Source: Tubulanus polymorphus
Taxonomy: Eukaryota; Nemertea; Palaeonemertea; Tubulaniformes; Tubulanidae
Assembly (NCBI RefSeq): GCF_964204645.1
Contig: NC_134027.1
Coordinates: 24,664,485 to 24,728,484 of the forward strand
DNA: 64,000 nt
Reading direction: 5' to 3'
Made by a program: the position numbers and the translations under genes. Shown in pieces: positions 701 through 59,760 of this stretch; positions within the stretch are counted from its first letter, which is position 1; each line of letters begins with the position of its first letter. The notes under the pieces are model-generated. The model was not told where the DNA came from. It made no database searches and was given only the letters and a program-made list of their open reading frames with translations.

Positions 701-3700
701 TAATAATAATAGTAATAACAAGAGTCGAATCTTATTCATTTAAAAACTATGGAACTGCGTACGTAACGATAATGCTAATATCGCGCTCTTATTTTCCAGG
801 CTAAACCGAAGTTGCCGTGCTTGAAAAAATACGGCCAGTTGAAACATTACGGTTTTCTGTCTTTGAACAATATCCGGTGTTTCGGTAAGCAGATTTTAGA
901 AGCCTTGAAATTCCTACATCAAAAAGGTTTACCTTATGGTAAGTGAAATATTTGACGGCTCTGCGATGATGTCAGGACAACTGCCCCCCCCCCCCCCCGT
1001 TTTCTAGCTTAATTCAAACTTCACCGTTTTAAGCTTAACTTGAACTCAGATCTGCTGAAGTAACAGATCACTTACTATTGCACGTAAACTTATTCTTCGG
1101 TTTCCTTTGATTAGGTAAATGAACTTTTTTGACGAGCCATTGTAAAAAATGGGGGGCAATTATTGTCCTGGAAATTAACTGCTGGTATCGGTCACCAGAA
1201 CCCAGGTCTACTCTAGAAAAAAAAAACAACAGTTTGAAAACGAATTTATTTGAAATGAGTTTGTTTTCAATTCACAAGTGTGATACTGGACCCAGTTCCA
1301 CAGTTGTGAATACAGTTAACTGTGAGTTAAGTTAGTTCATTTTCAATGAATTAACTCGGAGTGTTATATCTTAACTCAGAACCGTGGAACTGGACCCTGA
1401 AGTAATAAAAACTTTGAAAGTCGGATATTTACGGAAGATCTTTTTTTCTTTCGTTTAAGGTCATCTGCACAGTGCTAATATAATCGTAGAGCAGAATCAA
1501 TGTAAATTACTGGATATTGAGAACTGGTGTTTAGGTGTGCCTCCTTATTACAGACAGTTTATTACACAATTCAAAAAAATACAAGTAAGTTTTTACCTTA
1601 ATACTACTGAAATATCCTTGACACTTGTTATTCCCTGGTCACATTATTTAAACATTGCTTTTGGCTTGGCATTAAAAAGCCTTTCAGCAGCATGTGTGTT
1701 AATTTTCATTCTTAAGAAGAGTGAAAATTAGTTAATTTGAAAATTTTCATGATGGTCTCTTTTCAATGAGCAGTGCGGTGTATAGAAAAATCAGCAATGG
1801 ACTTAAACTAATACACCGCACGGTGGTGTATTGATTTAGTTATCAATTGCGTAGTTATAATGATCAAACATTTTGAAAATCTTTTACGTCAATTACTAAC
1901 AATACATCGCACTGTGGGGTAGATGCAGAGTATAGCAGTATGCCCGTTATACAACGCACTAGAATTGATTATACTCAATTTCAAATCATCTCCAGCAGAT
2001 TAGGGGCGTACTCTTTTATGACCTCCGAAGTCTCCATCCGAAATCTCCGGTTGGCTCCACACAAAATCCGAATCACACCACCTCGACAGAAAGGAGGTTT
2101 CGGACTCTCTAAAAAGTCATGTGACCAATAAAAGAGTGCAATTGGAGGCAAACGAATTCTCCCGATCTGATAAAAGAGTTCACCCTAGGGATAGGTCATC
2201 ACTGAAAGTGTTAACAGTAGACAGCGTTTCAACTACTAATTCCTTCTTGCATTTTTATCTGCCTCTAAACCTCTAATTATTGTGCATTGTGTTATAGAGT
2301 ATGGAGAGTATGGATGTGTATAATTTCGGTCGTGTTTTGTATGAAATGGCGTGCGGAGAACCGTTCTATACGGCGTCGTGCGAGACGTTCCCGCCGATGT
2401 GTCCGCCTGGCTTACGTGAGTCGAAATCCGAAGTTCAAATATTCGATGCATAAAATTTCAACCGCTGAATGAATTCCCTCTCAATTACGCAGACGTTTGG
2501 GTTCTTTAAAAAATTTCTCTCGATTTGGTTTCATTTCGCTAAATTATAACTCATTCCATGAGAACTATTTCTACCGATATTCTGTCATTACAGGAACAGT
2601 TCTGGAATCCATCCTTTCAACGGAGGCTTGTAAAAATGGTTTACCTACCGTAGCTGAACTGTTAGAATTACCGTACGTTGATATTGTTCATAACTAAGGT
2701 TTAACCCTTTCAGTGCATCTACACCGCAGTGCGGTGTATGAATCGGTGATGGATTTTGCTAGTACACCACACTGCGGTTTATTGATGAAATTAGGAATTA
2801 CTAATTATCTCTCCTGAAAGATGGCAGCATAGATGTCAAACATGGTGAAATATTAGTAACTAACGATACACCGCACCACGGTGTAGACGCAGTATAGTGC
2901 TATTCCCGTTATTCAACACACTAGGGTGGAATTTTTCAGAATTTTCAAATTATCTTCAGCACTATAGGGTATTGATTAGCCAGCACTGAAAGGGTTAATG
3001 CCGGTATCTATCCGTAGTGTGGACTCTGCACCCAAACATTTCTGGTACTTTTTCGGTACTCTTCCGATTATTGTTTGTCCAGACTTTAACATGATGGATT
3101 TGTTTGTAGGTTTTTCGGCGACGTTGTTTTACCCGCCACCGATAAACCGGTGATGAAAATACCGACCAAATTGAAAGAAGTGATCAAAACGGCGAAGGAC
3201 TCGCTGGAAAAACGTCTGAAAGATGACCAGAAGTTGGTAAGAATTTTTAGATAGAGGAAGACTTGAAATAGAGAACAACGTGGCTTGATCCTCGCTTGCC
3301 GCAGTAGCATCGAACATTGCCTTTCGCCCGACGATTAATTGTAGAATGTATGTTCGTATTTTTTCGAATCCAGGTGAGTCAAGTGAGGAGACGCTCGAAA
3401 GCCGAAGCCTTTCACAAACAGGAAGAAAAGAAGAAGAAAAGAAAGAGTAAACGGGTGAGAAGAATTTCGTTATCGGTTTCATGTTGAAACTTCAAGTCTA
3501 ATTTATTCCTATCTGCAACAATAATCCGTTGCCTAATCACCAAATTATCATAGACATTGAGTTCGTAGAATACATGGACTAAGTTTCATACGCAGGACCC
3601 AGTTCCACAGTTGTGAGTTAAGAGTTAACTCTTGAGTTAAAGTTAGTTCATATTCAATGAGTTAACTCGAAGTCAAATCTTTACTGTGGAACTGGACCCT

Positions 3701-6700
3701 TGATACCAAAGTTACCCCTAATGGTAAATCCTCAACCTGAGTGACGACCAACCACCAAATAGTAAAAATGTCATTTCTGTAAAACTGGCAGCAGATAGTG
3801 TTCACAAAATCATTCACTTCATTTAACTGTCTTGTAAAAAGCTGGGCCCGGATTGCTAGACCACGTATCGAAGTTACCAGCAGGGGTAAATCCTTGACTT
3901 GAGCCACAACCACCATAATAGAAAAACCATGGTTATAATGAAAATTTGAGAAGGTTCCTAGGGATTATTTTGTCCCCGCATCTATGAAACGCGGCTCCGA
4001 TATTTACTGCTGTAAATCTATTTGAATTTTGATATTTTCTCGAAAATTCCTCAAATTTGTGAATGACGAAATAGAATACAGTGTGAACCAAGTAGATATT
4101 GTAGGATAGAATGAGTATCGATGAATGAAATTCATAGTTTTTCTTGTTTCTGTCAATTTTCAGTCGTCGATGAACAATATCCCCGAGAATAATAACGGTA
4201 CGACGTCGTCTACTAGTCCCCCTTCGACACCCGTTTCACCGACACAAAGTAAGTATCGAAATATTTACTCGAATCTTTACTCAAAATTTTCGCCGATCTA
4301 TTTCACTATATAACTGATCACTTTTAGCGTAGCGTAGATATTGTGACTTTCTGAGGCTTCCGGGTTGGTAAGAACCAGGGTCTGCCTGGTTCCATTGCAG
4401 TAAGATTAAGAATCGGCTTACGAATACATCTTGAGACTGGTTTCAAGTTGTAGGCTAAAGCACTAAAAATAAGCTTAGACTGGTCTTAAGTTGTTGGATT
4501 GATTATAGAACCTAGATGAGCTTAGACTAGTCTAGGATCTAGTTTCATTTAAGCTAGAAGATGGTCTTTTGTGGTCGTAGATGCTTATGACCTGAATTAG
4601 GTTACGGCTCGGGTTCAGTCATTGGCACCGGCGCCCCTGGAGCACGTTTTTTCATCCATCTGCTTCACTTTTCTTGCAGCCAATAAATCTTGACCTCCTG
4701 TCGACCTCTCCTGCCACTTTATGTAAGATCTTCGTGTTCGTATTTCGTGTATTTGTCGTAACATTTTAATATTATGATATATCTATGTACACGATGTATA
4801 TATGTATTACGCACTATTATCAGTAATCGGGTCAAAGCTTTTAAGCCGGTTTGGTCAAACTGGACCAGAGCAGACCAGACCCAGGCAGGGGCGGATCAAG
4901 GGGCACGTACGAGACTTGTACAAGTCTGTAAAACTTTTTTCGTTTTGTCAACAAAGATAATTGGTTAATTTCAGTGCTGGTGTACGCCTGATATTGCGTT
5001 TTCAGACATGAAAGTCTCCTTTTGGGATATGATAAGTCCTTCGAAATTGGCCTCTGTACCCGCCCCTGTCGGGTCAAATTTGGCTCGGTCACAGGACGAG
5101 CCTGACTGGATTAAGGATTAGACTACATGGTTCTAAGGATCGCGCCGTATTTTTTAAACGAAGATTTCAGCTGCTGATTTATTATCTGGATTTAATTTTG
5201 TTTGTTTATTTCTCTCAGGATAAAAATCTGCTCAGTACCGTATTTGAATATATAACTGTACGTATGGATTTTTCGATCGCTATTGAAACAGATTTCCGCT
5301 ATAAGCGAACCGCTCGCCTCAGTACGGTTTACTCCGGGTTTACTCGCCCGACTCCGGGGTAAAATTCTATCTGAGAAAGAGGCAGAGTTTGCTGTATTTC
5401 ACAAACTCTGACACCAACTCAGAGTAGAATTTTGCCTAGAGTCTGCCCAGAGTAGAAATCTCAATTTTAACCGCAGTAAGAGATAGGGTCGACTGTATTT
5501 CTCAAACTCTTACTCAATATTTGACACCAACTCTGGATAGAATTTTACCAGAACAAATTCAGTAGGAGACAGGTTCTACTGTCAGAGTCTTCTGAATTAC
5601 GCAAACCTGTACTTTATATTATTTCATACCAACTCAGGGTATAGGATGTGCTCTATAAGTTTTGTTTTGCGTTTTTCCACATTCGAGGTCGTATGAAAAA
5701 TAATGCTTGTGGCCCTTATCAGCCCCCACGCATATTTGATCTGAATTGTCAAACTTTACTGAGTGGGGTGGAGTCTAGTCTATTTGTAGTAGCGGTTTGA
5801 AATATGGAAAGAAATTTTATTTTTCATTCAGAATTCGGCGCTCGGCTTCTCTGCTTACCTGTCTCGGTGTAACACGGGTATCAAACTGCAGCCATCCGTC
5901 CTGAAACCAACCCTCAACAAACGGCCACTACAACCAGTTGGGTCTTGTCCCTAATTCATTTTCACTGGGGTACCCGCAGGGCTACTGTAGCAATCAAGGA
6001 TTCCTAAAAGATCCAGTTCAAAATTCATCGAAAATGAACTAATTTTGATAACGGATGGCCTACTGCTCGGCATCTGGTGGGATAGCTGGCATTGCAGGTT
6101 CCCATTTATACAACATGGATACAAGTCTGATCATAGATTTGGAACAATGGTGATAAAGTATTGAATGTCTCAGGTACAGGTTCCTGGCTGAGGGCATGCA
6201 GGTTCCTCGCTGAGGGGGTACAGGTTCCTGGCTGAGGGGGTGCAGTTCCTCGCTGAGGGGGTACAGGTTTCTGGCTGAGGGAGTACAGGTTCCTGGCTGA
6301 GGGTGTGCAGGTCCCTGGCTGAGGGGCTGTAGGTTCCTTGCTGAGGGGCTGCAGGATCCTCGCTGAGTGGGAACAGGTATCAGGCTGCTGATTGATGCCT
6401 GCATGTAGACAGAGATAGATACAGATTTAGGCTCGGACAAAATTTCGCTTAAATGGCCGTAAAGTAGTTCGTTATATCATTAATAACCCACGTAACTACC
6501 CTCACATGCCATAGGCAGCATACTCTACCTGTGAGAGCGTTAATAAATCTTTGTCTGAGCTTAATTTCTATGAAGGTTGGGTGGATATGTACAGCGATTC
6601 AGATTCATTATTTCAATACGCCTAATATCTGTATGATTTTGTGTTGTATTTCAGTTTGAGTTTCTGTGTGAATGAATGTAGTACGTGCATCGTCCGTTCT

Positions 6701-8700: not shown

Positions 8701-9788
8701 TCGAAAGCTAAACTCAATTCTGAGTTAAAACTGGTCTAGAAAACAAACCCCTGTGCTATGTGCAAATTATATGTAGTGCCAGTAGACTTTGGTTGCTCGA
8801 GATTATTGCTCAGATGACCCATAATCGCTTCGACGAGCCTCGTGAGGTTCAAGGCAACCAGTAGAGTATATTGCAAGTGGTTCATGATTAGATCTGGGCG
8901 TGGTGTTTTCACATTTGAGTCCAATTTTGAATTAGTTGGTTTATTGTATTTGACTACCTCACCCCATATGGTATATAAGCAGCTTAGCCGTATGGGAGAA
9001 GAACACCAGGCCTCTAACCGATCTGGGAACCGAATATTCAATTCGTGAGACTGGTTCAATGGGAGGTATCCTGTGAAACTGACCCTGGGCCCATTTGTGT
9101 AGTGTGGGTATCATTTTAAATCTAAGAGTTGTGGTTTTTTTCTAGCTGGCAGTTTATATTAGTCAGACACGCTTTATTCGGATATTAAGTATACTTTCTA
9201 CAAACTATGTTGTGTCCATTACTGTCCAATGTTTTATCCCTGAAGCGTTGAAATTGATACCTGCGAAACTGGTAACTTTTATGTGGAATTAACAGAGCTT
9301 TTCCAGTGTTTCTTCCTGAAATACCCCATAGAAATGGGTGCAGTTTCATGAAAAAGTTTTAATCTTAAAACGGTCAAGTTTGAAGAATTGTTTTCCTCAA
9401 ATATGAAATAGGTAAAACCTAAAACTTTTTTCGTGAAACTGAGCGTAGGACCTAGTTTCAGTGTAGCTTAAGTTTGGGGATGGTTAAAATATTGAAAAAT
9501 GAACTAATTTTAACTCTTAGAAGTCAAACATAACTATGACTGTGTAGGACTGGGTCGAGCGAGGCCTGTGGTGTTCGAAACACTGTATTCTTTCATTCCA
9601 TATTACAATGTATTTAATCGAATTACGTATTAGTACTTTAATCAGTACTTCATATTCTATGTTTGTTACGACTGACGAAAATTTCCGGTCAGAAATATAT
9701 TTACGATTAATTTACCATTAAACATTCTTTACTATCCAGGAATATCCAAATTAGGAACAGTTTAACACTCATACACTGGATAAACTTT

Positions 9789-9844
9789 GATACTCACAAG
9801 AGCAAGCTTTCACCTACATTCTGTAGGCATCGTCAGGCTTAATG
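9789..9844 (-). ncRNA. Candidate hammerhead ribozyme, left arm (mirror copy)
   Basis: Exact reverse complement of the candidate in the right arm: TCGTCAG at 9830-9836 is CTGACGA on the minus strand, followed by the same stem II and GAAA. Two oppositely oriented cores would place one on each transcript strand. Confidence 0.5.
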
Positions 9845-9974
9845 TGACGTCATCAGATGTTGATGTGACGTCACAGCCGGATCTCGTCAGCTGGTCTGTG
9901 AAGGCTCCCGCGCGCCATCTGCTGCCTTAAGGATGTTATTCCATCCAGGGGGTAGAGCAAATCTGATGACGTCA

Positions 9975-10030
9975 CATTAAGCCTGACGATGCCTACAGAA
10001 TGTAGGTGAAAGCTTGCTCTTGTGAGTATC
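9975..10030 (+). ncRNA. Candidate hammerhead ribozyme, right arm
   Basis: CTGACGA at 9983-9989 (fits the CUGANGA core), a stem II of CCTACA / TGTAGG closed by a GAA loop, then GAAA at 10008-10011. Stem III would be minimal: AGC-UU-GCU-C, or a still shorter A-GC-U followed by cleavage after 10015. Stem I can form as GCU/AGC, an internal loop, and UGUGA/UCACA. Very short helix III is typical of mobile-element hammerheads. No cleavage evidence. Confidence 0.5.
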
Positions 10031-10318
10031 AAAGTTTATCCAGTGTATGAGTGTTAAACTGTTCCTAATTACGATTAATTTGTACACGTTTTTTCATCAT
10101 CTTCTCGTCGATACAGATCGACTGGGTCCCGTTTCTGGGTCCGATGAAAGCGGGCCCTAGGCTCCGATTTGACAGTTGTATATGAATTTTAACCCTGTGT
10201 GAGTCGAAATTAATTTAAACTCTCTTTTCTGGACCCAGGTTCCACACAACTTCTCTTTATTCTAAATGCGTTCACTTTCACTGTAATACAAACCTGTTTA
10301 AGATGTCACGTCACTTAA

Positions 10319-11878: not shown

Positions 11879-14459
11879 CTAGGAAAGCGTCTCGCCTTTT
11901 GTCACCTAGAATAGATAAACAGCAAATTGATTACAAGAGGAAAGCATCGACTGTAAGTTCAGTGGAACCTAGTTACAGCGAACTTCAATGGACCACAAAA
12001 TCTGTTCGTTATAACCGATTCACTGTTGGTAATCTAAGTACTGAAAGTTATCAAATCTTTTTCACTTGGGACGAAATTTCACTGTACTATTAGAAGACGT
12101 ACAAAATATGTTTTTTTTTTCAACTCCATTTTACATTTGGGCGTAGAAAATTCCCTTCAAATCAGCCAAATTTCCACTTTTCAATCTTATCTTTTTAAGT
12201 ATTTTGCAAGTAGGGAAACCCCCTCCCCTTAGTTTCGAGTTCAACTCCGAATTACACTATTCAGTTGAAACTAAACATACCCGAGCTTCAATGTACTCAA
12301 TTCTTCTTTCTAACGACGTCAGTTTTTCGTTTAACATCGCTAATCTCGATCTGCACGACATATCTACAAAATAACAACTTAATGTTACAGCTATCCATCA
12401 ACAGATAACCTGCGGGTAACAACGATACAGTTGTCAGTGCCAATCTGCAGCCTGGGCACAGCACACCCTGGGCCCTGCACCTTTAAACCCTTACATGTTA
12501 CGTGCTAAATGACAATTCTTGATATTTTTGATAGTCCACATTTCACATGTAGGCCTATATTTGTTTAAGGAAATCTGCCCGATCTGCTGTGACAAACAGA
12601 AACTAGTAGGCCTATAGGGTAGGTATAGTCAGTTACCTGACTGTGGTTTAGTTTCACGATCGGATATTTTCACAAACCACAAGTGGTATAAGCCCATCCG
12701 ATTACTAAAAGCTTACCACCAACGATTAGGTAACTAACTATGGTAGGTGGTTAGTAGTAAGCACAGGGACTTGTCACGACTGATAATGGATGAGACCAAT
12801 GATGGGGGTACCAGTATCCCTGCAACTGTATAATAAAATAACAAGGGTGGCAACAAATTTTCAATCTGACAATGACTTCTCCACTTCAATCGACTGTAAT
12901 TCCAAAAATTCTCAACCGATTCACATGAAATAAGCTTTAATACAACCTAGAAGACTTTCTGTTTCGAACGAGCCTACAACCACCACTCTCCGACAATTAT
13001 CTCACAACGAAATCACCTTTTTTTGACGAGAGATAGCTCAAAATGGAGGTGTACCGATTCTATGGTGGACAGCAAAATGGTCGTTTTTTTCAATTCAAAC
13101 GATGATTTCTATGTGAGATCTTAGAGATAACCCCAACAAACCATACATTTTTTTAAACTACGCGGTCATACCTGTACGCTAATCTCATTTATTTGTATAA
13201 TCCACGCGATGGGTGAGCTCACAAGCTCAAAATCGAAAATGAGGACGAACACGGCGTTCAACTTGTCATCAACTGGGCGGCCATTAATCACGTGATATCG
13301 TAGTAACAAGCTAAATATTTCACGCGCATTGATTGGCTTAGAGATTTCGAAAAACATTACAAAATTTATTAAAAGTTCTGTTAATTAATAAAATATCCGT
13401 ATTATGAAAATATAGTGCAACATTCGTCTGAGGGGTGGTATTATTAGCAAATATTTCCTTTTTTCAAGTCTACAGACGTAGACTTGTCGCGGTTCTATTA
13501 ACATAGCCCGAACCTGCACGTCACGTGATTAATGGCCGCCAGCGCGATAGTGCGAGGTGACTTTTTCATATATTTGTTCGATTTTGAGCTTGTGAGCTCA
13601 CCCATCGCGTGGATTATACAAATAAATGAGATAAGCGTACAGGTATGACCGCGTAGTTTAAAAAAATGTATGGTTTGTTGGGGTTATCTCTAAGATTTCA
13701 CATAGAAATCATCGTTTGAAGTGAAAAATACGACCATTTTGCTGTCCACCATAGAATCGGTACACCTCCAATTTGAGCTATCTCTCGTCAAAAAACGGTG
13801 ATTTCGTTGTGAGATAATTGTCCTAGAATGGTGGTGAAAGGCTCGTTGGAAGCAGAAAGTCTTCTAGGTTGTATTAAAGCTTATTTCATGTGAATCGGTT
13901 GAGAATTTTTGGAATTACAGTCGATTGAAGTGGAGAAGTCATTGTCAGATTGAAAATTTGTTGCCACCCTTGTTTTTTATATTATACAGGGATAGTGGTC
14001 CTGGTTATTGATATTGGTTTTATTCATTCACTATCAATTGTGACAAGTCCCTGTGGTAGTAAGTAAGTGATTGAGATCAGCAGAATAGCTTTTAACAAAT
14101 AGGTTAGAATGCAAGAATCTACTCTAGTCACACTCGGCTCGTATTTGAAGTTTAGGGGTGAACTGGAGCTTAGAATAGATCATCCAGTATCCCAGCCCCA
14201 GTGATATTGGTGTGAGGTGTAAGCGATTTAAACCCAGACTACTACACTTGTCACAACAACGTCAACGAAGGAAATGTCACCTCGAAAATAACGATTATCC
14301 GTTTAGTTCGAATATTCAAAACTTACCAAACGAGTTCAAAAAGTCAGCAATCCGTTTGATGTTACAAGTGATCATCTCTATTTGTTCTCTGTTGTCCCAA
14401 TCTTGACGTATTTGTCGTTGAATATGACTACTCCCTCCAGTACTCATAGGCGCCGCCAT
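11879..14459 (-). CDS. BRK1: BRK1 (HSPC300), WAVE complex subunit
   Basis: Three exons on the minus strand: 14459-14327, 12363-12281, 11905-11879 (stop 11881-11879). Phases agree: exon 1 ends with one base of an Asp codon completed by exon 2. The product is 80 aa: MAAPMSTGG start, then [56 protein letters not shown] and the ending VTKGETLS. This is nearly the whole of the 75-aa BRK1 family, a single coiled-coil helix in the WAVE regulatory complex that drives Arp2/3 actin assembly. The start at 14459 has a good Kozak context (AAAATGG). ATG 14447 (MSTGG) is an in-frame alternative and another in-frame ATG lies at 14507. Intron 1 contains a 1.29 kb foldback transposon. Confidence 0.96.
11955..12035. 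repeat. Single monomer of the 89-bp repeat (GTTCGTTATAAC)
   Basis: A diverged single copy of the unit that forms a tandem array at 36.45-36.95 kb: GAACCTAGTTACAGCGAACT, then 'aaaatctgttcgttataac' and 'ttcactgtt'. It lies in BRK1 intron 2, about 50 bp from the last exon. Confidence 0.55.
12762..14055. mobile_element. hAT-like foldback element with 8-bp TSD
   Basis: The 8-bp direct repeat GTAGTAAG at 12754-12761 and 14056-14063 flanks perfect 16-bp terminal inverted repeats CACAGGGACTTGTCAC (12762-12777, 14040-14055). The inverted similarity continues inward, with small indels, to about 13290 on the left and 13515 on the right (for example GGCGGCCATTAATCACGTGA on one arm and its complement on the other). 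The element is thus a 0.5-kb-armed hairpin with a short unique centre. An 8-bp duplication and CAGGG-type ends are hAT hallmarks. No transposase is visible; the 63-aa frame 13166-13357 lies within the left arm. Confidence 0.8.
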
Positions 14460-15285: not shown

Positions 15286-16611
15286 TCATTCGAACTGAAA
15301 ACTGAGACCAGTTCCAGCCAAACGATCCTCGTGAATTTTGTCGATGATTCCACATTGCTCGTCTGTAAAATAGTTTTTCCAGTCTCCGATTTTGCCTTTT
15401 CGAATAAAAGGGAAGATACTATTGTCCTGATACGGTGAGTGGCTGTGATTAGTCATCGGATTGTCTCTCATACTTTCGAAACTCGTCTGTTCAATGATAT
15501 TATCGATTTTATCGACAGACAGAGTTTTACCGAGGAAGGCGCAGATTTTCAGGATGTTTGATTTCTGGTCGGTGACCATATCCTCGTATTTCAGGAATAG
15601 AATGTTATCGCGATGTCGCTGGTTCCACCAACCCAGAACGTGGTCGTAGAAATCTCCGCAGAATATTTTCTTATGCAAGAAAAGTTGGAAGAAATCATCC
15701 CACGAACCTGAAAATGAATAGAATTTAGTTTTATACAGCGTTTAGGCCATAATTCTGGGACCAGCTGCTCAAAACTGGTTACGTAACTCTAACCAGTGGA
15801 TGACATGGCAGCATTTATCCGCCAGTTATCTTTAACCAACTTTTAAGCACTGACCCCAGCTGTTTATCAGCAAAATGGCTGCGTCTAGGCCCCCTACCTG
15901 GAAAATTACCAAAGCCTTTACACGACTTGTAAAAGTGATAATACGAAACTAAAGTATCTTTCGGATTTCTCATGACGTAGATAATCTTAGCCTTTCTCTC
16001 GATCGCCTCTTTCGGGAACATGTCAAACGGCATATGGCTGTGCATAATGCGGGGTCTAGGTATTTCCTCGGCTAATTGAAACCAATCGGGGCAGTCGATG
16101 AAAGGGCATCTTTCGAAGAGTGGTTTTTGTCTGGCGACTTCATCGTTTCCATAAATCAAAGACACTGTTTCTTTCGTTAAATTGGTCCCTGTAAAACATA
16201 ACCGGATTTGCTAGCCAGATTCGGAAGTTCTTCACTTGACTTTATCATGATACATGTATGTAACAATAAAGAAAACCTTACAATCTATTTCAGGTTTGAA
16301 ACACGAAATTTTGTAACTTCTGCCTATCCTAAGAGTTTGCTTATGGTTTCACCTTCATTCTCGATTTTCAACACAGCTTCTCACGTTGAAATACTGGATG
16401 AAAAGTGAAGTTAAAACTCACCAGTTTTCGGATAGCTGGCCACAAAACAATCGTCATCGAAAACTTTGCAATTGCGAACTTTGTCGAGAATTTCAGGAGG
16501 CGCGAAATGCCCACCGATAAATCCGTGTTCGACGATCTCGAATTGGTCAGGAATCTGCCACAGAGTCGAGGACTGCTTTCCATCCGCGGTATCGATACAG
16601 TTAGTTGACAT
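15286..16611 (-). CDS. Cytosolic sulfotransferase (SULT family)
   Basis: Three minus-strand exons, 16611-16422, 16188-15898 and 15707-15286 (stop TGA 15288-15286), with phases 1 and 1 that join exactly. Product is 300 aa, the usual length for cytosolic SULTs, which transfer sulfate from PAPS to hydroxyl or amine groups of small molecules. Visible signatures: the 5'-phosphosulfate loop SYPKTGT (about residues 59-65), the catalytic histidine in MHSHMPF (about H115), the 3'-phosphate site RNPKDTLVSYYHF (R137, S145) and the C-terminal PAPS-binding, dimer-proximal motif RKGKIGDWKNYFT (from about 263). No signal peptide or membrane segment. All catalytic elements are present, so activity is likely. 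Substrate and orthologous SULT subfamily cannot be read from sequence. The loop is TGTNL rather than the common SGTTW. Confidence 0.95.
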
Positions 16612-25120: not shown

Positions 25121-25125
25121 CCTGG

Positions 25126-26520
25126 TGGTAGCAAGTCGGTCGGTCAGTCTTTTATTGTCTCTCCATCAATCCATGGTTAATGTGTTTGAATCCTAGTGGT
25201 AGCAGTCAGTCAGTTAGTCTTTCACTGGTATCTCATCAATCAAGGGTTCATGTTTGAATCCTGGTGGTAGCAGTCAGTCAGTCTTTCACTGGTATCTCAT
25301 CAATCAAGGGTTCATGTTTGAATCCTGGTGGTATCAGTCAGTCAGTCTTTCACTGGTCTCTCATCAATCCAGGATTCATGTGTTTGAATCCTGGTGGTAG
25401 CAGTCAGTCAGTCTTTCACTGGTATCTCATCAATCAACGGTTCATGTGTTTGAATCCTGGCGGTAGCAGTCAGTCAGTCTTTCACTGGTCTCTCATCAAT
25501 CCAGGATTCATGTGTTTGAATCCTGGTGGTAGCAGTCAGTCAGTCAGTCTTTCACTGGTCTCTCATCAATCCAGGGTTCATGTGTTTGAATCCTGGTGGT
25601 AGCAGTCAGTCAGTCTTTCACTGGTATCTCATCAATCCAGGATTCATGTGTTCGAATCCTGGTGGTAGCAGTCAGTCAGTCAGTCTTTCACTGGTCTCTC
25701 ATCAATCACGGGTTCATGTGTTTGAATCCTGGTGGTAGCAGTCAGTCAGTCTTTCACTGGTATCTCATCAATCACGGGTTCATGTGTTTGAATCCTGGTG
25801 GTAGCAGTCAGTCAGTCTTTCACTGGTATCTCATCAATCCAGGATTCATGTGTTTGAATCCTGGTGGTAGCAGTCAGTCAGTCAGTCTTTCACTGGTCTC
25901 TCATCAATCACGGGTTCATGTGTTTGAATCCTGGCGGTAGTAGGTCAGTTCTTCACTGGTCAGTGGTTACAGTCAGTCAGTCTTTCACTGGTATCTCATC
26001 AATCCAGGATTCATGTGTTTGAATCCTGGTGGTAGCAGTCAGTCAGTCAGTCTTTCACTGGTATCTCATCAATCACGGGTTCATGTGTTTGAATCCTGGT
26101 GGTAGCAGTCAGTCAGTCTTTCACTGGTATCTCATCAATCACGGGTTCATGTGTTTGAATCCTGGTGGTAGCAGTCAGTCAGTCTTTCACTGGTATCTCA
26201 TCAATCCAGGATTCATGTGTTTGAATCCTGGTGGTAGCAGTCAGTCTTTCACTGGTATCTCATCAATCAAGGGTTCATGTTTGAATCCTGATCGTAGCGA
26301 TCAGTTTTTCACTGGTCTGTGTTAGCAGTGAGTCGGTCTTTTATGGCCTCTCCATCAATCCAGGGTTCATGTGTTTGAATCCTGGTGGTAGCAGTCAGTC
26401 AGTCTTTCACTGGTCTCTATCAATCCAGGATTCATGTGTTTGAATCCTGGCGGTAGCAGTCAGTCAGTCAGTCTTTAACTGGTCTCTCATCAATCAAGGG
26501 TTCGAATCCTGGTGGTAGAG
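25126..26520. repeat. 64-72 bp minisatellite with B-box-like core
   Basis: About 20 tandem monomers of the form 'gtttgaatcctggtggtag' + (cagt)2-3 + 'ctttcactggtatctcatc' + 'aatccaggattcatgt'. Length varies mainly through the number of CAGT repeats. The last monomer has a perfect Pol III B-box word GGTTCGAATCC (26499-26509) and most others carry GTTTGAATCC. Several 70-114 aa reading frames here are repeat translations. Confidence 0.9.
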
Positions 26521-46900: not shown

Positions 46901-49900
46901 CAGTGTAGATGCGCTATAGCGATATGACGGCGATACAAAACACGCTGGGCTGGAACTTTTTGAAATCATTATCAATGGTTAACACTGACCTTCATGTCTT
47001 CGTAGGCCTCGCCGAGTTTAGCGCAAAGCTTATTGATGAACGCAGAATTCTCGTCGGCATAAGAAGATGCTCCTAGACTCATAGCAGTCGCTAGGTGTGA
47101 ATAGGCTATCGATAATCCTGCGAAAACAACAAAAATATCGAATGTCAGAAAACAATCATTTAAACATCGCGAGCCATTGAACCGGGATGTGGCCTGTCAG
47201 TGAAATATATTTTCAGCAGTCTCAACGCTACCGAGTTCCCTGATTCTCAACTCAGTGAAATATTTACGGCAGTCCCAATGCTACCGAGTTCCCTGATTCT
47301 CAACTCAGTGAAATATTTACAGCAGTCTCAACGCTACCGAGTTCCCTGATTCTCAACTCAGTGAAATATTTACGGCAGTCCCAATGCTACCAAGTTTCAT
47401 GATTCTCAACTCAGTGAAATATTCACGGCAGTCCCAATGCTACCGAGTTTCATGATTCTCAACTCAGTGAAATATTTACAGCAGTCCCAATGCTACCGAG
47501 TTTCATGATTCTCAACTCAGTGAAATATTTACGGCAGTCCCAATGCTACCGAGTTCCCTGATTCTCAACTCAGTGAAATATTTACGGCAGTCCCAATGCT
47601 ACCAAGTTTCATGATTCTCAACTCAGTGAAATATTCACGGCAGTCCCAATGCTACCGAGTTTCATGATTCTCAACTCAGTGAAATATTTACAGCAGTCCC
47701 AATGCTACCGAGTTTCATGATTCTCAACTCAGTGAAATATTTACGGCAGTCCCAATGCTACCGAGTTCCCTGATTCTCAACTCAGTGAAATATTTACGGC
47801 AGTCCCAATGCTACCAAGTTTCATGATTCTCAACTCAGTGAAATATTTACAGCAGTCTCAACGCTACCGAGTTCCCTGATTCTCAACTCAGTGAAATATT
47901 TACGGCAGTCCCAATGCTACCAAGTTTCATGATTCTCAACTCAGTGAAATATTTACAGCAGTCCCAATGCGACTGTGTTAGTTAAGTTGGGTCAAATTTA
48001 AATTGAGCGGTACTTGTTTCTAAAATCCAGGATCGAGTTCCATAGCTGTGAGTTACCAGAAGATTTAAGGTTAGTCTATTTTTTCAATGAGTTTTCTCAT
48101 TTAATAGAACCACGGAACTTGGTCCAGATATTACACTTACTTAACGTTGCATAGACATTTTTATTGAAGTTTCTTGAGGCCTCGTGTAAGTATTGCGAGT
48201 AAGTAGCTAACCAATCACGCTCTTTCTGGAAGTAATCGTCGATATCCTGAAAAAAAAAACCCGAAAAAATATTCTTTAAATTTCCAAGGGCAATGATTTA
48301 AACCTCTTAAAACCTTTTAAGTCGAATGTGAATTTCAAAACCGTAGGAACTGGCTTTCAAAGAGCATGTTTCTTCTAATTCTTACCTTACGGGAGAATTT
48401 TCGCGCTTGATCAATTGACGAAGTCAACCGACCAAATATACCCTTCTTAACTTTAGCCGTATTCAATGACTGAAAACATATCAACAGTTGGTAGCTCATT
48501 ATTAAACTTTCAGCGCATCTACACCTCAAAGCGGTGTATAAATCGATGAGCAACTTTGCTTTTACACCGCACCACAGTGTATTGATATAGAATTCGTTTT
48601 TATTTCTAATGAATGCCTGCTGTTATAAAATGCACTGGGTAGGTATTTTCTGAATTGAATTGCTTATTATCATTCAAAATGGTGTATGGAAAATTAAACC
48701 ATTACTGTAGATAACGATCTTTACAGGTGGAACAATTGAATACGGTACCTCTGTACAAGTGAGGAAGTCGTCTAAAGTTTTATCTTTCCCAAATGCCCAA
48801 TGCGTTATGACTAACTTCAAATATCTAAAAAAGAAAAACTCAATTTTGAACATCGGACAAATATCAGGCACCGCTTTGACTTACTCTGATTTTATTTTTG
48901 CCCAAATAATTGATGAATTATTATAAATTAAGGAATTCTAATTCATGACAAAACGATGTAGACTAAAACCGGAGACTAAAACCAGACAGAGGTGAATTCG
49001 CAAGGTTGATGTCAGGACCACATTCTGCAGGGGAGGTAAAATTCTTCTAAAATATCAAATATTACAATAAGGACATCCTATGTTGGAATCTTTGATTAAA
49101 ATTAATTGCGCAACTGTGGAACCGCGTGCTGAAAGCCTGACAGCGAGTTCAATTCAAAAGCCATTTTGAAAGATATGAGAAAATGTGATGAAATTCATCT
49201 ATCAAAAGTACTGGTAACAGGGTGGCTTCTTTCTGCTCAAAATTCCCTGATTTTTCAATGTTATAACACAAAATTCCCCGACTGAATAAGAGAAATTTCT
49301 TGGCGCAAAATGTTATAATCTAATCACTTTTCATATCATATCTAAATTCCAGGTTTTCTGCAAAATGTATCAAACTTCCTAAATTTTCCATAGTATTTCT
49401 TAAACATTTTTCTGGTTAGCTCGGTTTTCCGGGTCAGTGGTCACCATGCGGTAAGCAATTATCATCGCTTTCAATATTTCAACTAAAAAGCAAGCACTAA
49501 TCAGGGCTTATCCAAAATTCTTCGAAAAGCAAGCGCCTTTTCAGACTTTCCGTCAGACTCATTACGAACCCTTCGAAAAAGCGACCAAATCTTCGACTCC
49601 AGAAAAATGACTCTTACTTTTCTAAATTTCGACAATCTTTCATGTAGTCGTCGGCTTTAACGAGACGACTCGTCGTACCGAGTTGTTCGCGCGATTGACG
49701 CTCAGCAGTTTTAGGTTCGACGATCGGTTTCGGAGGCAAAGGCGGCGCCTACGCGGAAAAAATACAACGACAAAACATAAACAAATTTCTTTTTTTTTCG
49801 AGAGAAAATCGATATAATTGACTCAAAACGAGAATAAGTTCGAGTATTCCCAAATAGATGATCCCAGGACCGGTTTCCGCAGTCAAGATTTAAGATAAAA

Positions 49901-58229: not shown

Positions 58230-59760
58230 AAAAGATTAACGTTAGACAAAATTCTCCCACCTTGTAAACTTTCGGACTAGTTTCATGAAAATAAGACCAA
58301 ATATTGTAAAATATAGTTATTTCCAAAATCTCGATGTATCAAATTAGGCAGAAAAAAATAGATAAAATTATTCAACCTTGTAAACTTTCGGACTAGTTAC
58401 ATGAAAAAAAGACCAAATATTGTAAAATATAGTTATTTCCAAAATTTCCATGTATTAAATTAGGCAGAAAAAAATAGATAAAATTATTCAACCTTGTAAA
58501 CTTTCGGACTAGTTACATAAAAACAAGACCAAATATTGTAAAATATAGTTATTTCCTAAATCTCGATGTATTAAATTAGGCAGAAAAAAAATAGATAAAA
58601 TTATTCAACCTTGTAAACTTTCGGACTAGTTACATAAAAACAAGACCAAATATTGTAAAATATAGTTATTTCCAAAATCTCGATGTATTAAATTAGGCAG
58701 AAAAAAAATAGATAAAATTATTCAACCTTGTAAATTTTCGGACTAGTTACATGAAAAAAAGACAAAATATTGTAAAATATAGTTATTTCCAAAGTCTCCA
58801 TGTATTAAATTAGGCAGAAAAAAAAATAGATAAAATTATTCAACCTTGTAAACTTTCGGACTAGTTACATAAAAACAAGACCAAATATTGTAAAATATAG
58901 TTATTTCCAAAATCTCCATGTATTAAAATAGGCAGAAAAAAATAGATAAAATTATTCAACCTTGTAAACTTTCGGACTAGTTACATGAAAAAGACCAAAT
59001 ATTGTAAAATATAGTTATTTCCAAAATCTCCATGTATTAAATTAGGCAGAAAAAAAAATAGATAAAATTATTCAACCTTGTAAACTTTCGGACTAGTTAC
59101 ATAAAAACAAGACCAAATATTGTAAAATATAGTTATTTCCAAAATCTCGATGTATTAAATATGGCAGAAAAAAAATAGATAAAATTATTCAACCTTGTAA
59201 ACTTTCGGACTAGTTACATGAAAAAAAGACAAAATATTGTAAAATATAGTTATTTCCAAAGTCTCCATGTATTAAATTAGGCAGAAAAAAAAATAGATAA
59301 AATTATTCAACCTTGTAAACTTTCGGACTAGTTACATAAAAACAAGACCAAATATTGTAAAATATAGTTATTTCCAAAATCTCCATGTATTAAAATAGGC
59401 AGAAAAAAAATAGATAAAATTATTCAACCTTGTAAACTTTCGGACTAGTTACATGAAAAAAAGACCAAATATTGTAAAATATAGTTATTTCCAAAATCTC
59501 CATGTATTAAATTAGGCAGAAAAAAATAGATAAAATTATTCAACCTTGTAAACTTTCGGACTAGTTACATAAAAACAAGACCAAATATTGTAAAATATAG
59601 TTATTTCCAAAATCTCGATGTATTAAATTAGGCAGAAAAAAAAATAGATAAAATTATTCAACCTTGTAAACTTTCGGACTAGTTACATGAAAAAAGACAA
59701 AATATTGTAAAATATAGTTATTTTCAAAGTCTCCATGTATTAAATTAGGCAGAAAAAAGT
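58230..59760. repeat. 116-bp AT-rich satellite with higher-order structure
   Basis: About 13 monomers of 115-118 bp, each with 'ttcaaccttgtaaactttcg', 'gactagttacat', 'gaccaaatattgtaaaatat' and 'agttatttccaaaatctc'. Variants (cataaaaacaag / catgaaaaaaag; gaccaaat / gacaaaat; ctcgatg / ctccatg) repeat in the same order every four monomers. A diverged extra unit lies at about 59830-59950. Confidence 0.9.

Follow-up and report, generated by a model that had tools for sequence, protein, structure and literature searches.

Head-to-head insertions of Penelope-like elements in Tubulanus polymorphus have one tail each, as a proposed twin-strand priming model would predict

We analysed a 64,000-nucleotide stretch of the Tubulanus polymorphus genome (the window; contig NC_134027.1, positions 24,664,485 to 24,728,484) that carries a short inverted-repeat element with paired hammerhead-like motifs. 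Judged by its sequence and that of its relatives, the element is a non-autonomous copy of a Penelope-like retrotransposon (PLE) that has lost internal sequence. Exactly one of its two ends bears a short tail, and the same holds for all 54 head-to-head pairs that we mapped in the genome (8 of the window family, 12 mixed and 34 of a family designated F2). We consider it probable (about 0.78) that these pairs arise by twin-strand priming on PLE RNA, with one start site used per strand and the resulting cDNAs joined head to head. The element itself adds one more copy to a known kind of element; what should interest specialists is the one-tail rule, which looks new within the open-licence literature searched.

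The arms of the window element (9749-9858 and 9961-10070) are 100% identical over 110 bp in inverse orientation and are separated by a 102-bp spacer, and the 13-mer TTACGATTAATTT stands at both edges (9701-9713 and 10069-10081). Arms, spacer and direct repeat had all been described in the initial annotation and were borne out by a recheck of the window. The two ends are unequal, a point absent from the initial annotation. On the left, a 35-nt tail (9714-9748, minus strand, edge +/-1 nt) separates the 13-mer from the arm, while on the right the tail is absent and the last 2 nt of the arm are shared with the 13-mer; 33-36 nt of the tail adjoin one end in each of seven other head-to-head copies of the family. 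We read the element as two cDNAs. The tailed one, cDNA A (9714-9964, minus strand), consists of the ORF end and 3′ region, a pseudo-LTR and the tail, is 5′-truncated at the junction, and maps to the ORF of the longest relative, L018, from position 2186 and to positions 1-215 of the pseudo-LTR plus tail. Its pseudo-LTR is the left arm (minus strand), which contains a hammerhead motif at 9794-9848 (minus strand; C3 at 9836, predicted cut between 9804 and 9803), and the outer edge of its tail would be start site 2 of reverse transcription. The spacer (9859-9960, minus strand) belongs to cDNA A only and holds the 3′ end of the PLE ORF, the 3′ region and the upstream part of the pseudo-LTR. The tail-less cDNA B is the right arm (9961-10070, plus strand); it maps to pseudo-LTR positions 70-179, its outer edge would be start site 1, and it contains the second hammerhead motif (9971-10025, plus strand, predicted cut 10015^10016). 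The cDNAs meet at 9961-9964 in a 4-bp microhomology, ATCT, over which their unit matches overlap by 4 nt. Both represent 3′ parts only: cDNA A extends into the ORF end, while cDNA B stops 22 nt upstream of its C3. A motif that we take to be CRE-like, TGACGTCA, closely precedes the hammerhead and occurs at 9845-9852 and 9866-9873 in cDNA A and at 9967-9974 in cDNA B.

We assign the 13-mer to target DNA because the duplications at family loci are 11-14 bp long and all different. The target duplication proposed in the initial annotation also agrees with the other genomic copies: the repeat differs wherever a duplication was found, and the 13-mer is not part of the conserved element. Across families, duplications measure 11-18 bp and were found by script in 50 of the 54 head-to-head pairs. 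Chance makes little contribution at these lengths; between flanks compared in 31-base windows, the longest shared word was 12, seen once in 400 random comparisons, and with 48- or 80-base windows no word of 11 or more was shared in 400 comparisons each. Around 36 empty sites, both edges looked similar by eye in base composition, with A-rich sequence preceding and T-rich sequence following.

Other repeats occur elsewhere in the window. A second inverted repeat (12836-13237 and 13577-13978) has 402-nt arms that are 96% complementary and lie 339 nt apart, and dispersed repeats with a short palindrome near ACACCGCACYGCGGTGT are found at 1790, 2741, 2808, 8490, 10814, 46830, 48541, 51622 and 51684. 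Tandem arrays at 25121-26503, 47197-47970 and 58243-59758 have units of ~66, ~53 and ~117 bp, respectively, and minus-strand ORFs at 15286-16210 resemble, by eye, a sulfotransferase gene.

A search of the genome (267.8 Mb, 77 contigs) with the element gave at least 41 matches, which resolve into the window and 13 other loci. Full-unit relatives are 94-98% identical to the window element, and together with its identical arms this supports a young insertion. The initial annotation had taken the perfect arms to imply either recent insertion or ongoing conversion; the former stands, and conversion is not needed, since both arms could have been copied from the same RNA in one event. Eight of the 14 family loci are head-to-head pairs of one sense sequence (window, L009, L010, L011, L014, L016, L018 and L020) and six are single segments, with tail in L012, L013, L015 and L017 and without in L019 and L021; L012 and L013 are copies of each other. 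Tailed ends of the pairs fall at map positions 212-215 and tail-less ends at 178-180, except in L018 (160) and in L010 (172), whose second segment also carries an internal deletion. A further window-family copy found through the ORF, L036, showed no hammerhead and is outside these counts. Beside the PLE copy of L013 lie the arms of a perfect 2-kb palindrome (1-2052 and 2534-4585 of that locus), and the surroundings of this copy are identical to those in L012 over 1630 bases, which suggests an inverted duplication of the region. Beside the copy in L015, several foreign-looking opposite-strand ORFs of 99-163 aa perhaps belong to another mobile or viral element.

The PLE-type identity put forward in the initial annotation is supported by L018 (~2.6 kb, the longest relative found in the genome), which has a reverse transcriptase frame and a GIY-YIG-type end. 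Its 698-aa frame (P0001) matched Pfam RVT_1 at E 2.2e-4, below the curated cut-off, a group II reverse transcriptase/maturase model at E 7e-7, far below the cut-off of that model, and a group II intron-like reverse transcriptase in the PDB at E 5e-4. The family thus has the reverse transcriptase ORF of a PLE by way of L018, the window copy retaining only its 3′ end. The link to a GIY-YIG endonuclease domain is indirect: P0001, whether whole or as its C-terminal piece alone, gave no GIY-YIG match in Pfam, and its C-terminus aligns (29%, E 3e-12) to that of the F2-family PLE, which scores 28.9 bits against Pfam GIY-YIG (PF01541, cut-off 22.6). The pseudo-LTRs, which in PLEs are direct and/or inverted with an optional 30-40 nt tail, and the variable target-site duplication (8/8 family pairs, 11-14 bp, all different) also fit a PLE.

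Both arms contain CTGACGA, a 6-bp stem II and GAAA in hammerhead order (plus strand 9983-10011, minus strand 9836-9808), as first annotated. On the plus strand, helix I pairs 9980-9982 with 10016-10018 and, beyond an internal loop, 9972-9976 with 10021-10025; the core has C3 at 9983, an extra U at 9990, stem II at 9991-9996/10002-10007, closed by a G.U pair, and GAA at 10008-10010; and helix III (10011-10012/10013-10014) is followed by U17 at 10015. Written out, the fold is AGC-CUGACGA-U-GCCUAC/GUAGGU-GAA-AG/CU-U^GCU, with UCACA/UGUGA as the second helix I segment. Helix III is only 2 bp long and loopless, the layout that we read from the printed RNA of PAc, a Penelope/Poseidon-type PLE of Anolis (Frangieh et al. 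2024, PMC11167929, cited throughout from excerpts), and the very short helix III of the original hammerhead call is upheld. When helix III was instead aligned by hand with 3 bp and a UU loop, helix I did not fit. The loopless form accommodates 21 of 22 motif types, the exception (L070+121) having a mismatch, and helix I is only 0-2 bp in several types, some of them at junctions with non-native upstream sequence.

Comparison among motif groups points to a conserved structure. Other groups in the genome have different helices in the same layout, and the extra nucleotide between CUGANGA and stem II is common to all aligned motif rows. In a covariation test with 13 sequences, 96.4% of cells paired, versus 22-45% in slid controls, and all three helices covaried over five motif groups, with double changes in 8 of 11 pairs; one of the five covariation measures, further pair types, was not above shuffles (322 of 500 were as high). 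A strict hammerhead filter was passed by both window motifs and by 42 other rows from the collected loci (overlapping loci included); in 30 Markov-1 sequences it found 0.033 sites per 64 kb, versus 2 in the window. The window gave no hammerhead match in Rfam at gathering or permissive thresholds. This result carries little weight because seven control loci, six from other motif groups, gave no hammerhead either; Rfam models apparently do not cover the minimal PLE form. On the same control loci, several microRNA-like Rfam rows sit on palindromic junctions. A PLE-specific covariance model (R1), built from 11 sequences with none from the window family, detected each window motif at 34.7 bits (E 1.4e-7, rough calibration), with the next match at 13.5 bits, so the covariance check suggested for the hammerhead failed with Rfam and succeeded with R1. 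With a CUGANGA/GAAA core, three helices and an H17, the window motifs hold structurally as PLE-type hammerheads, their cleavage being a prediction.

The one-tail rule extends well beyond the window family. The pattern CTGANGAT...GAAACGTH occurs 4067 times in the genome, versus 8 times for a reversed control. Among the first 100 of the 4067 places, neighbours within 1 kb comprised 12 divergent, 1 same-strand and 0 convergent cases (12, 3 and 1 within 3 kb), all 12 opposite-strand neighbours within 1 kb being divergent. Every one of these 12 divergent pairs was one-tailed, with a tail of 33-39 nt where a duplication fixes the edge and otherwise as judged by eye. A duplication was found by script in eight of them (L042-L045 and L050-L053), and that of L046, TTACCGCAGTACC, is visible by eye; L047, L048 and L049 showed no clear target duplication, and the tail-less end of L049 is ragged.

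For F2 we used as reference a natural copy, L054, in which the hammerhead is closely followed by an ORF matching P0001. F2 alone of the other motif groups is tied to a PLE ORF, the rest being assigned by layout and tail. The 25-mer just 3′ of the F2 cut site occurs 109 times in the genome, and the first 100 of these places form 63 clusters, comprising 28 '-+', 3 '-++', 2 '++', 1 '--', 29 single (one with a partner beyond these 100 places) and 0 '+-'. Base-level mapping covered every '-+' and '-++' cluster (31 in all) together with 3 additional pairs. All 34 pairs have one end at reference positions 895-901 and a second at 932-938. Each has a duplication of 11-18 bp, and the side of the tail is balanced (16 left, 18 right, n = 34). 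Two candidate exceptions picked out by pattern were dismissed on mapping: C2:6699664/6699755 has one tail (L075), and the C10:2841724 cluster has one tail each in L113 and L114, with 2844513 a separate tail-less arm. Independent, equal use of two start sites on each strand would predict one tail in half of the pairs; we counted 54 of 54.

We also mapped the 5′ ends of 40 cDNAs from 20 F2 pairs, the shares of which are biased by the choice of pairs with short spacing. Relative to the hammerhead C3, 18 ends form a cluster 3-10 nt upstream, 13 lie further out (-29 to -595) and 9 fall within the motif (+1 to +26); the cut site (+34) has 0 of the 40. The cluster lies ~30 nt after TATATATA in L054 (760-767), which, on our own reading of the motif, suggests a transcription start; TATATATA stands upstream of the F2 hammerhead where the window family has TGACGTCA. 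Because 103 of 109 F2 copies span the cut (they also have the 4 nt upstream of it), the inserted templates appear to have been uncut with few possible exceptions, and ribozyme-defined 5′ ends could apply to at most 6 of the 109. We therefore argue that hammerhead cleavage does not shape the inserting templates.

We propose that the PLE protein would nick both strands of an AT-rich target ~13 bp apart, and that each target 3′ end would prime internal reverse transcription of PLE RNA. One strand would start at site 2 and copy the tail, and the other at site 1, ~35 nt upstream, giving a tail-less cDNA. Both cDNAs would run toward the RNA 5′ end, stopping variably or running off, and would be joined head to head via end joining or microhomology, with fill-in of the staggered nicks generating the 13-bp duplication. 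Each cDNA would bear a pseudo-LTR with a PLE-type hammerhead, the reverse transcriptase reading through the uncut ribozyme, and palindromic junctions would arise when both cDNAs run off the RNA 5′ end. We infer that both strands prime in one event and that one start site is partitioned to each, a split that might reflect a fixed-geometry dimer or one shared RNA; no reaction intermediate of twin priming was observed.

We lean towards the broader view that coordinated twin priming is common in PLEs, with a symmetric endonuclease dimer nicking both target strands and each strand obligately assigned to a different one of two start sites ~35-37 nt apart on the PLE RNA. If true, this would explain the inverted pseudo-LTRs, the 'optional' tail and the palindromic junctions with no recourse to antisense templates or ribozyme cleavage. 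Several observations weigh against twin-strand priming with one start site per strand. A strict one-each rule needs an extra constraint, since no strand difference in start site was seen in vitro (PMC11167929); the tail-less ends of L018 and L010 fall short of site 1; and single-arm insertions exist (6/14 window-family loci and 29/63 F2 clusters among the first 100 places). We do not hold to a strict version in which a single RNA is copied twice in succession. Under it the tailed cDNA should trail the other, and it is the longer one in the window, L073, L076, L077 and L085.

The second arm could also have formed after a target-primed first cDNA, by fold-back or by copying antisense RNA, and head-to-head arms with palindromic junctions have been attributed to self-priming on antisense templates in the PLEs of Adineta vaga (Arkhipova et al. 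2013, PMC3846280, cited from excerpts). Simple fold-back would duplicate the tail in the second arm, however, and two-tailed pairs number 0 of 54. An antisense RNA whose 5′ end lies exactly at site 1 would likewise yield one tail per insertion, but tail-less ends scatter (895-901) about as much as tailed ends (932-938), target base composition looks alike at both ends, and both tail edges in PAc are reverse transcription start sites measured on sense RNA (PMC11167929). We regard such a route as quite unlikely. Still less credible is a DNA transposon or MITE with terminal inverted repeats; inverted arms and a target duplication would suit one, but the ends are unequal, the junctions variable, a longer relative encodes a reverse transcriptase and the duplications range from 11 to 18 bp across families. 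No transposase-encoding relative with the same ends was seen among the fetched loci, and we give this reading almost no credence.

What the hammerhead motifs do is a related question. The initial annotation envisaged a circular-RNA-producing element, that is, a retrozyme-like unit moving through self-cleaved circular RNA, and the motif in each arm recalls retrozymes, which are non-autonomous and carry hammerheads (PMC7229834, cited from excerpts). In the window, however, the ribozymes are inverted, and no tandem ribozymes bound a unit for circular RNA; because they face opposite ways, one transcript bears one sense ribozyme only. Circle excision requires two tandem ribozymes. Given also that nearly all F2 copies span the cut and that no mapped end lies at it, we find this proposal unsupported and highly improbable. 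The accompanying remark that the inverted arrangement would give each transcript strand a ribozyme holds for the sequence, but this reads as a by-product of head-to-head joining. Alternatively, the insertion may be as we describe while CTGACGA...GAAA is a conserved hairpin or protein-binding element that never cleaves. Energy minimisation does not fold the motif into a hammerhead, although helices I and II appear in the centroid fold, and a 2-bp loopless helix III, a G.U-closed stem II and the lack of any sign of cut templates in F2 copies would suit such a role, as would the PAc motif, which needs protein in order to cleave and which insertion in vitro can do without (PMC11167929). Yet three helices covary over five motif groups with the core kept, and PAc, with the same layout on our own reading, does cleave; a never-cleaving motif thus seems unlikely to us.

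Metazoan retrozymes are likewise non-autonomous retroelements with type I hammerheads, but yield small circular RNAs (PMC7229834), whereas the present element has inverted ribozymes and the templates that inserted were uncut. Penelope elements of Adineta vaga (Pen2a_Av and others) have inverted pseudo-LTRs with an optional tail on one; the excerpts of PMC3846280 do not mention a hammerhead or state a strict one-tail rule. PAc shares with the elements described here a protein with reverse transcriptase and GIY-YIG domains, a pseudo-LTR with hammerhead, a 30-40 nt tail and AT-rich targets (PMC11167929) and, on our reading of its printed RNA, the extra U after CUGANGA, an ATG at stem II and the 2-bp loopless helix III. 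Helix III is AG/CU in the window family versus AC/GU in PAc, with U17 versus C17, and helix I of the window family is AGC/GCU. The motif does not serve as an ORF start as in PAc, since the window-family frame from its ATG stops after 6 codons. PAc is described as tandem, with no description of inverted insertions in the excerpts of PMC11167929, whereas F2 forms a head-to-head pair in 31 of 34 multi-arm clusters (first 100 places). According to the same source, the PAc protein cuts and extends both target strands, and its reverse transcription starts internally at two adjacent sites, the stretch between them being the tail (30-40 bp), with no start-site difference between strands seen in vitro. 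One tail in 54/54 pairs, two sharp cDNA start sites and duplications of 11-18 bp join these two observations on the lizard enzyme into a specific, testable model of integration.
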